A DNA stretch of 37,301 nucleotides. Origin: an uncultured bacterium (GTDB lineage: Bacteria > Cyanobacteriota > Vampirovibrionia > Gastranaerophilales > Gastranaerophilaceae). Of this stretch, positions 9,797 through 12,913 are shown one piece after another. The notes beneath the pieces are model-generated. The model worked only from the letters and a program-made list of their open reading frames with translations, did not search any database and was not told where the DNA came from. The first letter of the stretch is position 1, and every line of letters starts with the position of its first letter. The DNA lies in the NCBI GenBank assembly GCA_902775025.1, contig CACYKP010000027.1:1-37301 (forward strand), given 5' to 3'. Both the position numbers and the translations under genes were made by a program.

Positions 9797-12700
9797 TTAC
9801 CAAACTATAACAACAGCACCACCGCCGCCCGGACCAGCAGTCATTTGCATTAAACCGCTTTGTACCAGCGGACTGTTTTCATATAAATTAAACGAGCTTG
9901 CTGTTGCGTTTTTGTCATTTTCACCTACACCATAACAGTTATACCCTTTATAATTACCATAAGCATATTCTGTTCTTTCTGAATCTTTTGAAGTAGCTAT
10001 AGTTTCAGATATTGGACCTCCATAAAAAGTAGATTTTACTGTACAGGATGAATCACCTGACTTTTTATACAAACAACCTGAAGCTTCGTTCACTCTGTAT
10101 CGTGAGCCTCCGCTTTTACTTTTTGTTTTATAATATACAGCTCCATAGAATTTGCCTTTTCTAGCAAGACACTTATCGTTTAATGTTGTACCTGCACCGG
10201 CAGCTCCTACATTATATTTAGTTTGGATGTCATATCCTCCGTTATAATTCATTTTTATATTAAATAATTTTGACCAAATAGAAGTAGGTTTCCAATTTGG
10301 TTGTGCAGGGCCTGAAGCAAGCCTTACGGTATGTACACCTCCGTTTTCATTAATTCCTTTATTCCATAAATAATAGTTATTTGATACATTACCACTTCCT
10401 GATTTTAGTGAGTTGTTATAGCCGTTTCCATCAACAGTTTTGTTAAAGACAACTTTTCCGTCACTTTTTTTACAAATCATTGTTGTAGAAAGTTTTTTAC
10501 TTAATACGGAAGCATCATCTATGCCATATCTCAGAACGACACCACCTTTAGGAATTGAAAAGGTACAATTGGTACCTAAATCCGTTTCTGTAGAAGATAC
10601 AACTTTACCTTTATTTCCGTTGCTGCCTAAACTATATGTCTTTGACCAAATCCATGAGCTTGTAGTCATATATGGTTCTTGATGCATTGGAGAACCTGAG
10701 AACGGATACAAAGTTTTTACAGGAGACGTTTTTGCATCACTTTCCTTCATCCCTTGAATACTATAACCATTACCTTGATAACTATCATGTATTATATCAA
10801 CACCATTATATCCCTTATTACCGTAAGCCTGATATGCAACATTTTTTATGAAAAAGTAATCCGTACCATATTTGCAATACCATGCAGTAAAATCACAATA
10901 ATTCGTAGGACGTACATATTTATTAGGATTACTCTCATCTACATATACATCAGGCTTTTTGCCTCCTGTTGCATTTTGTCTTACTACATTCTTTTTTCCT
11001 ATTGGGGTTTGCCAAGATATATAATAATATGGCGCTCCACCTGCAGGGTTTAATACAGGGTATCTTTTTTTACTTGAATCTTTTGTAAATTTTGCCGTGT
11101 TATCTTTATCATCGCTATAATTAACACTTCTAATTTTGTTATGATCTATAGTTGTTCCCAGAGGTAAATATGTCAATTGATTACCTGTTATATTAGCATC
11201 ACTTCCGCGTATAAAACAAGTATTACCTTCTTCACATTTTGTACAGCCTACACCAGTATTGGTTGCACAACGCAAAGGATAATAGGTTGATTTTATATTG
11301 CTAATATAATTAGTAAATTTTTCTGCACTATTTTTATTGTAATTTATTTGGTAAATCAGTCTGGACAATGTACCCAGCCCTTCATTACCCCCAAGAACCA
11401 TTACAACTCGAGAACCGCCGAATGTTATTTCGTTGTCAATATTAGTAAGATTAGTATAACTCCAACCTTTCATTCCTTTATAATATGGTTTGAATTCTAC
11501 CATACAATAATCTCTGATTAGTTTTTTTACTTCATCATTCATAACCGAGCGTTCGTTATAAAGAGATGTGAATCTAGCATTTTTAGGCAAATCCCTCATT
11601 AGCATATACTCAAGTTCATCCTTCTCTTTTTGCAGCTCTTTTATTCTTTCTTCTATAGCGTAATGAATGATGTCGTTAACAACATGCGTTATTTGAACAC
11701 CCCAACTATGTGTATCGTCGCCATACTTATCTCTGGTACCTCTTAGTACGTGAGCTTCCGGATGAGATTCATAAAGAGCCCAAGCTAAATTTGCAACAGA
11801 ATCATACTCTAACTCATTACCATCTTTGTCATCTGCTAACACATATTCCCATCTTTGATTGATTTCTTTTATAGTATCATTTATATATTTATTATAAACA
11901 GGATCCTCAGCTTTTTTAAAAAACGCAGATAAATTTTTAATCCTTTCTACACTACTATACTTCGTATTCACTGTCAATGTATCGGCTATAAGAACTATTA
12001 ATTTTTTTAAATTTACACGTAATGGATGCGGATCATCATGTGTCCAATCCCAAGTATTGTCCCAGCCATTTTCAACAGTTTCCAATTTAGCAAAATTTAA
12101 TTTATTACCATAATAATCGTAAAGTGTCTTCTGGGATGTTATTGTATTATAAATTTTAGGATAACAATCGTCAGGTCTGCAATTTGCAATAACACCTTTT
12201 AAATCACATATTTGGTCACTACGACTACATATTGTTGAACCTTGGAGGATGCTATATGCCCATCTGCCATTGTTGGTACGTACAATTTCATCATAATTAA
12301 TATTATTTCGTAAATTATAAATTTCATTTTCTATTTCTCTAATTCTTTTTTCAACTTCCGTTTTACCTTTTTGTGAAATACAAGACGAGTCTATTACGCT
12401 GGGATAAGTAAGAGTTACACCGCCTCCGAAACCTGCATCAGCTGTATAAACAGAATCTACAATGTATTTTCCGTTCAAAAAATCATAATAGTCTTTATCA
12501 CTAAGTTGGTATATATCATATTTGTCGCCGCCGTTACTAAAAAAATCTTTTGCATTATCTAAAGTAATCTCATGGCTGGATGTACCGGATTGACTTGCAT
12601 CAATATGTGCACCCTTTGTACCGCCTGAACCCGCACTATATATACTTACTTTATACATTGGCGCTTTTGGAACATTAAATGTACAACTTGACACAGACCT

Positions 12701-12913
12701 GCTTGATATCAAATTCGACCCGTTATATTGTTCTTCGAGCAATGAACCTCCGTTGCTTATACATCTGTAAATTCCGTGTGATATCTTTGGAGGTACTGCT
12801 GATATTTTTTTTGTTATCATAGTCATTGATGCAGCCATAACAACCGATAACATTGTAAACATTATCAATACTTCAACAAGAGAAAAACCTTTAAATTTTA
12901 ATTTGTTTGTCAT
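9797..12913 (-). CDS. Giant prepilin-like protein with glycine-rich adhesin-type ends
   Basis: A 1038-residue protein, several times longer than an ordinary pilin. The signal is 'KFKGFSLVEVLIMFTMLSVV' (Gly -1, Glu +5). Directly after the helix comes 'HGIYRCISNGGSL', then 'CTFNVP' and 'YSAGSGG', shared with two neighbours. Residues ~180-480 are highly charged and helical, with two heptad-like stretches ('EKRIREIENEIYNLRNNIN' and 'ERIKELQKEKDELEYML') that could pair as an antiparallel coiled coil around an inserted domain. A second 'CTFSIPKGG' occurs near residue 810. The C-terminus is glycine-rich and ends 'GPGGGGAVVIVW'. Cys residues are abundant. ATG 12913 has AAAGGAA 6 nt upstream; an in-frame start 66 nt earlier would displace the signal. 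Likely surface-exposed minor pilin or tip adhesin (inference). Confidence 0.85.
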   Translation of the reverse strand: MTNKLKFKGFSLVEVLIMFTMLSVVMAASMTMITKKISAVPPKISHGIYRCISNGGSLLEEQYNGSNLISSRSVSSCTFNVPKAPMYKVSIYSAGSGGTKGAHIDASQSGTSSHEITLDNAKDFFSNGGDKYDIYQLSDKDYYDFLNGKYIVDSVYTADAGFGGGVTLTYPSVIDSSCISQKGKTEVEKRIREIENEIYNLRNNINYDEIVRTNNGRWAYSILQGSTICSRSDQICDLKGVIANCRPDDCYPKIYNTITSQKTLYDYYGNKLNFAKLETVENGWDNTWDWTHDDPHPLRVNLKKLIVLIADTLTVNTKYSSVERIKNLSAFFKKAEDPVYNKYINDTIKEINQRWEYVLADDKDGNELEYDSVANLAWALYESHPEAHVLRGTRDKYGDDTHSWGVQITHVVNDIIHYAIEERIKELQKEKDELEYMLMRDLPKNARFTSLYNERSVMNDEVKKLIRDYCMVEFKPYYKGMKGWSYTNLTNIDNEITFGGSRVVMVLGGNEGLGTLSRLIYQINYNKNSAEKFTNYISNIKSTYYPLRCATNTGVGCTKCEEGNTCFIRGSDANITGNQLTYLPLGTTIDHNKIRSVNYSDDKDNTAKFTKDSSKKRYPVLNPAGGAPYYYISWQTPIGKKNVVRQNATGGKKPDVYVDESNPNKYVRPTNYCDFTAWYCKYGTDYFFIKNVAYQAYGNKGYNGVDIIHDSYQGNGYSIQGMKESDAKTSPVKTLYPFSGSPMHQEPYMTTSSWIWSKTYSLGSNGNKGKVVSSTETDLGTNCTFSIPKGGVVLRYGIDDASVLSKKLSTTMICKKSDGKVVFNKTVDGNGYNNSLKSGSGNVSNNYYLWNKGINENGGVHTVRLASGPAQPNWKPTSIWSKLFNIKMNYNGGYDIQTKYNVGAAGAGTTLNDKCLARKGKFYGAVYYKTKSKSGGSRYRVNEASGCLYKKSGDSSCTVKSTFYGGPISETIATSKDSERTEYAYGNYKGYNCYGVGENDKNATASSFNLYENSPLVQSGLMQMTAGPGGGGAVVIVW

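Follow-up and report, generated by a model that had tools for sequence, protein, structure and literature searches.

Minor pilins with exchangeable adhesive parts are located at the pilus tip in the shufflon system of plasmid R64, in which the variable part of PilV is a C-terminal end swapped by a recombinase. PilV of plasmid TP114 is likewise a minor pilin with an exchangeable adhesive part, according to PMC9045228. In Streptococcus sanguinis, PilB and PilC are modular type IV pilins with a bulky module thought to be exposed at the tip, and PilB demonstrates the display of such a binding module by a pilus; 264 architectures of modular pilins have been reported (PMC8179133). Among phage proteins, Pam3 gp24 comprises a glycine-rich stem and hypervariable distal tip loops that were proposed to bind receptors (PMC9608196). 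For the pili of Gastranaerophilales, passages of PMC5877343 name core pilus genes alone. Here, we report the analysis of a 37,301-nucleotide stretch of DNA (the window; contig CACYKP010000027.1 of assembly GCA_902775025.1) from an uncultured member of the Gastranaerophilaceae, which contains a gene, designated g3, for a giant prepilin of 1038 residues. The protein combines a prepilin N terminus, a head that is most likely a glycine-rich domain of the type present in phage tail tips, and a long variable insert carrying a module that is reused in other proteins, and it is probably a tip adhesin.

Results

g3 is an intact 1038-codon prepilin gene located on the minus strand, with an ATG at position 12913, preceded at a distance of five bases by AAGGAA, and a stop codon at position 9797. 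The plus strand of this interval is crowded with stop codons. When g3 was shuffled 200 times, stop-free runs did not exceed 157 codons, versus 1038 in g3 itself, and the guanine-plus-cytosine content of third codon positions was low throughout (0.18 to 0.26 in the five segments tested). Thus, no misjoin is visible in the frame. The protein starts with a class III leader containing the prepilin motif KGFSLVE, with G-1, a hydrophobic helix, and E+5 (KGFSLVEVLIMFT). Residue E14 was invariant in the 12 sequences of alignment A1, drawn from the 20 g3 copies that were collected, and all 12, including that of the window, matched N_methyl at E <= 1. The N_methyl score of g3 was 16.8 bits for the whole protein, below the cut-off of 21.2, and 22.6 bits, above the cut-off, in a six-frame search of the genome. 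Comparison of g3 with Pfam, NCBIfam, and PHROGs returned prepilin-type and chance matches and nothing else. A sequence search of the PDB with the g3 protein or its profile was negative at E <= 1, and chance matches alone (E 0.08 to 0.7) were obtained for the module described below and the N part. The preliminary description of this locus, made from the letters of the window, had proposed a 1038-residue prepilin, which is borne out by the intact minus-strand frame, the KGFSLVE motif, and the N_methyl match in the genome search. It had also considered that the frame could be a misjoin of two genes or the protein cytoplasmic. Neither was found, since the coding bias is even and intact relatives occur in other genomes, and since the protein carries a prepilin motif in a genome that encodes a prepilin peptidase, a secretin, and pilus ATPases.

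The start and end of g3, recognized as shared modules in the preliminary description, are both present in the A1 alignment. They are best interpreted as opposite ends of a single glycine-rich domain of phage type (Gly_rich_2 family; PF21722), the loops of which have grown to several hundred residues in g3. The homology was reached through intermediate sequences. At least 24 frames in 16 genomes matched both the A5 profile (residues 36 to 180 of g3) and Gly_rich_2 above its cut-off, i.e., at least 24 of the 90 above-cut-off Gly_rich_2 frames, among the matches listed. Alignment by hhalign of residues 36 to 180 with 15 prepilins from Gly_rich_2 loci gave a probability of 94% and an E value of 1.9e-7 over 61 columns, covering the start only. 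For this set, 29 loci were read, 8 of which had no prepilin-like N terminus in the stretch examined and 4 of which were cut open; 15 of the remaining 17 prepilins (200 to 700 residues) were aligned. In some of the 29 loci, the prepilin frame is a neighbor of the Gly_rich_2 frame; the same-frame count given above is therefore based only on the listed matches to both profiles. Loci L120 and L122 have the same layout as the window protein, consisting of a prepilin helix, HGxWxC, CTFxPPxxAxxF, a glycine run, and a final GAVI(V/I)EW. A related protein of 278 residues (L108:1330-2166) combines N_methyl (24.0 bits) and a full Gly_rich_2 domain (40.7 bits), both above the cut-offs; this compact protein is a good small target for structure work. 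The link between g3 and Gly_rich_2 is thus provided by other genera of the family. Gly_rich_2 was detected at E <= 0.01 in 59 of the 335 genomes of the class, including 57 in the family of the window, and above the cut-off in 42 of the 335; the E values were calculated per genome, about three chance matches being expected in 335. The preliminary description had also placed a second start, CTFSIPKGG, near residue 810. This motif begins at residue 783 of g3 (805 in the 1060-codon frame opening upstream), and a second start is unsupported, as alignment of the two parts (N part and motif region) by hhalign reached a probability of 17% and an E value of 0.0015 over 16 columns.

The model of the shortest relative of g3 (mean predicted local distance difference test [pLDDT] score of 53.9) matched the tail tip of phage Bxb1 (9d93_Qb) with a Z of 10.0 over 161 residues (root mean square deviation of 3.8; 24% identity). 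The second row was the TG domain of LTK (7nx1), with a Z of 7.3 over 126 residues (root mean square deviation of 3.7), and the next head-spanning row was at a Z of 4.5. Because best Z values of 7 to 8 are common by chance, according to the note of the comparison tool itself, the LTK row carries little weight, and only Bxb1 stands out among the structural rows. The Bxb1 match extends from residue 46 through the last residue of the shortest relative, and this span suggests that the N and C ends of the predicted head belong to one domain. Bxb1 gp33 is a 267-residue Gly_rich_2 protein (45.4 bits), which we infer to be chain 9d93_Qb from the fit of its 267 residues to the chain numbering.

The insert of g3 is bounded by Cys178 on one side and by a glycine motif on the other, both invariant in A1. 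Among the 12 sequences of this alignment, residues 1 to 178 displayed a mean identity of 39% with 10% of gaps, versus 17% and 56%, respectively, for segment 179 to 500, the length of which ranged from 84 to 540 residues. Cys51 and Cys77 were also invariant, and Cys470 was found in all but one of the ten A2 sequences (A2 and A8 comprise the window protein and nine loci from a contig search). Charged residues accounted for 31% of segment 179 to 470 versus 14 to 21% of six other segments of g3. The AlphaFold2 model of g3 contains helices at 181 to 203 and 408 to 440, with helices and coil only in 181 to 495; the pLDDT was 74 to 85 at 181 to 200 and 411 to 440 and mostly low in between. The shorter insert of the shortest relative was modeled, at low confidence, as helices 170 to 189, 191 to 196, 198 to 224, and 232 to 244. 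According to a crude heptad score, segment 180 to 209 was barely at the 95% level of shuffled sequences and segment 515 to 545 reached that level, while the expected second segment (about 425 to 450) was below it. The charged, helical, and length-variable insertion of the preliminary description was therefore recovered. Of the two heptad-like segments said to bound it, both correspond to model helices; the first is borderline by the heptad score, and the second was not flagged. "Coiled-coil-framed insertion" is a fair description, not a proven one. The structural matches of the full window model were too weak to be used, and the coiled-coil rows among them (Z up to 5.5; range of about 172 to 447) may reflect only a common helical arrangement. 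In two g3 relatives (L060:7977-10112 and L061:935-3751), the variable loop is apparently cysteine-rich and not plainly helical.

Residues 287 to 434, within the insert, are related to the C-terminal ends of non-pilin proteins encoded by the same genome (contig C20) and by genome G005. A search with six sequences detected this module in 10 of the 286 genomes of the order, all in the genus of the window; two of these ten genomes had provided model sequences, and one of the 12 hits (G024) is a 32-residue fragment. Eight of the 12 hits were frames of 531 to 798 residues devoid of a prepilin start, four of which adjoin a frame that we take to be ClpX-like. The module was also found at the C terminus (E 3.9e-7) of a different prepilin of 493 residues (L081; N_methyl, 23.5 bits, above the cut-off). 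It lies within the g3 insert in the window genome and in at least two relatives, by alignment alone in the relative of 1306 residues. The occurrence of one module in three settings supports its grafting. The genus-restricted proteins of approximately 500 to 800 residues that share the module as their C-terminal end (L033, L051, L076-L080, and L082) displayed weak matches, Ig-like in L076 and EF-hand-like in L051. The non-pilin module gene of the window genome (L033:7329-9930; G000:C20) may be frameshifted or misassembled, since an adjoining second frame overlaps it by 89 bases.

The substitution pattern of the insert was analyzed in the closest pair of genomes (G005 and G017; L034 versus L035), in which the proteins are 94% identical. 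The insert contained 26 replacement and 3 silent changes, versus 2 and 5 in residues 1 to 177 (P 0.003) and 30 and 28 in g1, g2, g4, and g5 taken together (P 0.0004). Nothing unusual was observed in regions 585 to 940 (30:12) and 941 to 1236 (11:4) of L034. Thus, the data for this pair show weaker constraint on the insert but do not establish positive selection.

With the whole g3 protein as the query, 30 of the 144 genomes searched, including that of the window, had a match at E <= 1e-5. Twenty copies were fetched from 18 of these genomes (window included), with g3 lengths between 603 and 1306 residues. Three genomes of the same genus contain relatives (1236, 1226, and 1306 residues) that align piecewise over most of the length of g3; the relative of 1306 residues had no BLAST match to residues 207 to 451. 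The remaining copies that were compared align chiefly in the N and C parts. The A5 profile was matched in 78 of the 286 genomes of the order, all 78 within the family of the window. The contig search identified no relative with the single g3 protein as the query and nine loci with the A1 alignment. Relatives of g3 were absent from the viral contigs searched and, at E <= 0.01, from phage records, in which the shortest member used as the query with an E limit of 10 gave a single match at E 8. In one nearly complete genome (G019), three contigs (L099 C3, L100 C12, and L101 C4) terminate inside a g3-type gene, as if several gene copies or strain variants were present.

g3 is the third in a row of five prepilin-like genes (Table 1). 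The homology between the start parts of g1, g2, and g3 extends past the leader helix (hhalign E values of 5.3e-12 and 1.4e-8). By a simple motif scan, all five prepilins were detected in order in 13 of the 20 fetched operon copies, four in 5, and three in 2, some of the copies being interrupted by contig ends. The window genome (2.29 Mb; 88 contigs; 96.5% complete) encodes a T2SSE ATPase and a secretin together on contig C34, three further T2SSE proteins, and one prepilin peptidase (Peptidase_A24), all above the cut-offs. N_methyl was matched at E <= 0.1 in six places of this genome, five in the operon (three above the cut-off) and one on contig C66 (above the cut-off); the latter, a prepilin of 222 residues, could be the major pilin. 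In another genome (G052:C6; L050:11342-12246), the 5' ends of two divergent copies of the five-gene operon form a perfect inverted repeat of 291 bp with a 323-bp spacer between its arms, and the copies are approximately 69% identical in the remaining alignable stretches (around g2 and over g4-g5). This repeat could be an invertible promoter or the product of recent gene conversion.

Table 1. Prepilin operon of the window and layout of the g3 protein
Feature	Position	Strand	Basis or remarks
g1, large prepilin, 584 residues	13461..15215	-	Start part homologous to g3; ends GNSGAIILIW; hhalign E 5.3e-12 and 3.7e-14
g2, prepilin, 178 residues	12931..13467	-	Start part homologous to g3; ends ...ISW; N_methyl 29.1 bits; hhalign E 1.4e-8
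g3, giant prepilin, 1038 residues	9797..12913	-	Open frame; relatives of 1236, 1226, and 1306 residues in same-genus genomes
g4, prepilin, 228 residues	9090..9776	-	N_methyl 26.7 bits; recurring gene order
g5, prepilin-like, 340 residues	8052..9074	-	TIGR02532 19.1 bits (cut-off 16.3); recurring gene order
g3 prepilin leader and N-terminal helix, residues 1-34 (KGFSLVE)	12812..12913	-	N_methyl; model helix 12-34
g3 first head part, residues 36-178	12380..12808	-	Alignments A1 and A5; model beta strands
g3 start motif CTFNVPKAPMYKVSIYSAGSGG, residues 77-98	12620..12685	-	Matches Gly_rich_2 start (positions about 4-34) in related prepilins
g3 variable insert, residues 179-507	11393..12379	-	Lengths and identities in 12 sequences; model with only helices and coil in 181-495
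g3 first framing helix, residues 181-203	12305..12373	-	Model pLDDT 77 and 85 for 181-200; heptad score at 95% shuffle level
g3 genus-restricted module (DDKDGNELEYDSVANLAW...GTRD...HSWGV...VVNDII), residues 287-434	11612..12055	-	Alignments A3 and A4; genome search
g3 second framing helix, residues 408-440	11594..11692	-	Model pLDDT 74-84 for 411-440
g3 glycine-motif region, residues 508-740 (GGNEGLG, ATGGKKP)	10694..11392	-	Mostly low model confidence
g3 last head part, residues 741-1038, ends GGGGAVVIVW	9800..10693	-	A1 alignment and model

Discussion

We consider it likely that g3 is a modular minor type IV pilin located at the pilus tip, with a diverged glycine-rich (TNF-like) head and an exchangeable module borne by a loop, and that it binds a surface. 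By analogy with other members of the pilin family, the N-terminal helix would join the filament after cleavage, and the glycine-rich head would be positioned at the tip together with g1 and g2. The first strands and the last strand (GGGGAVVIVW) would be parts of a single domain, separated by long loops. In one of these loops, the helical segment opens with Cys178 and may be closed in most A2 relatives by a second cysteine (Cys470 in g3) through a putative disulfide bond. This segment would hold the exchangeable module outward, away from the pilus, enabling the loops and the module to attach to gut or rumen surfaces, as proposed for the distal loops of phage fibers. Retraction of the pilus would then draw the cell to the bound surface. 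It is conceivable, at slightly less than even chances, that the tip subunits of type IV pili in Gastranaerophilales of the gut have heads corresponding to the glycine-rich, receptor-binding domain of phage tail fibers, the loops of which would dock exchangeable modules on helical hairpins, thereby providing rapidly re-armed tip adhesins of phage type.

Several observations weigh against this interpretation. Gly_rich_2 had no match in g3, in its genome, or in any genome of the same genus that was searched, and hhalign of the g3 family against Bxb1 gp33 alone gave no alignment. The start of the head was likened to Gly_rich_2 by statistics and its C-terminal end by motif only. The mean pLDDT was 54.7 for the window model and 53.9 for that of the shortest member, whose short insert was at 33 to 63, and the matches of the whole window model were weak (best Z of 5.5). 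Neither the comparison of the window model with the PDB nor that of the shortest member with a viral library, both by Foldseek, yielded a row at E <= 0.001; the best two viral rows were glycine-rich proteins at E 0.007 and 0.01 with poor superposition (template modeling scores of 0.12 to 0.23). Cys470 is outside the columns conserved at 90% in A1. Finally, the excess of replacements in the insert, based on one genome pair, was not significant in comparison to a neutral simulation (P 0.076).

This last result would also fit large minor pilins g1 to g3 with a purely structural role, priming assembly in the manner of GspI-J-K or the ComG minor pilins, the insert being a tolerated, drifting decoration devoid of any ligand. 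Several prepilins per operon suit a priming complex, and GspK has a helical domain inserted in the pilin sheet (PMC8179133). The reuse of the module in another prepilin and in non-pilin proteins and the resemblance of the head to a phage tail-tip domain speak against a purely structural role, which we regard as unlikely. A role of the insert and of the glycine-rich head in binding DNA for uptake, as in ComZ of Thermus, has a precedent in a large minor pilin known to act on DNA (PMC8179133), but acidic residues abound in the module (DDKDGNELEYD), and we regard this function as improbable. We attach similarly little credence to the insert acting as a shield, with variability driven by phages using the pilus as a receptor: the uneven concentration of change in the insert would suit any arms race, whereas the presence of the same module in other proteins suggests that it has a function of its own. 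The chance that the g3 frame is an assembly artefact, a misjoin, or a decaying gene is negligible. The contigs ending inside a g3-type gene indicate that the gene is hard to assemble, but long relatives have intact frames in other genomes and the coding bias is even.

A surface-binding tip pilin provides a concrete hypothesis for the way in which non-photosynthetic relatives of cyanobacteria, an uncultured lineage of the gut and rumen, may attach to surfaces, and it suggests that bacterial pili share a domain with phage tail tips. The heads may remain nameless because they score below the Pfam cut-off in this genus and because loops of hundreds of residues split the domain. We found no full-text paper joining "type IV pilin" with "glycine-rich domain" or "minor pilin" with "TNF-like"; subscription papers and database annotations were outside the scope of this search.

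Comparison with known systems sets g3 apart in several respects. The variable part of g3 is an internal loop, in contrast to the C-terminal variable part of the shufflon PilV proteins. Similar to phage proteins Bxb1 gp33, Pam3 gp24, and S16 gp38, the g3 family displays a start motif of the VPxG...GGAGGGG kind and a GGxGxVxIxW end motif, in addition to the predicted fold likeness to Bxb1. Unlike these proteins, the g3 head is mounted on a prepilin helix, contains fewer glycines, and has loops of hundreds of residues, and it had no direct match to gp33. The likeness to the TNF-like, glycine-rich ectodomain of ALK and LTK is limited to the fold of an animal receptor, at a Z (7.3) that can be reached by chance. 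GspK, from type II secretion systems, resembles g3 in having a helical domain placed inside its pilin sheet (PMC8179133), but the g3 insert varies freely and the head looks to be of another kind; no solved sequence matched g3 or its profile at E <= 1, although a distant relation may exist. PilB and PilC also combine a prepilin N terminus with a bulky extra module. However, the PilB module is joined by a short loop, whereas in g3 the glycine-rich domain apparently constitutes the head and has insertions nested in it, and the most extreme multidomain pilin named in PMC8179133 has 860 residues, versus 1038 for g3 and 1306 for one of its relatives. Modular pilins as such are already known.

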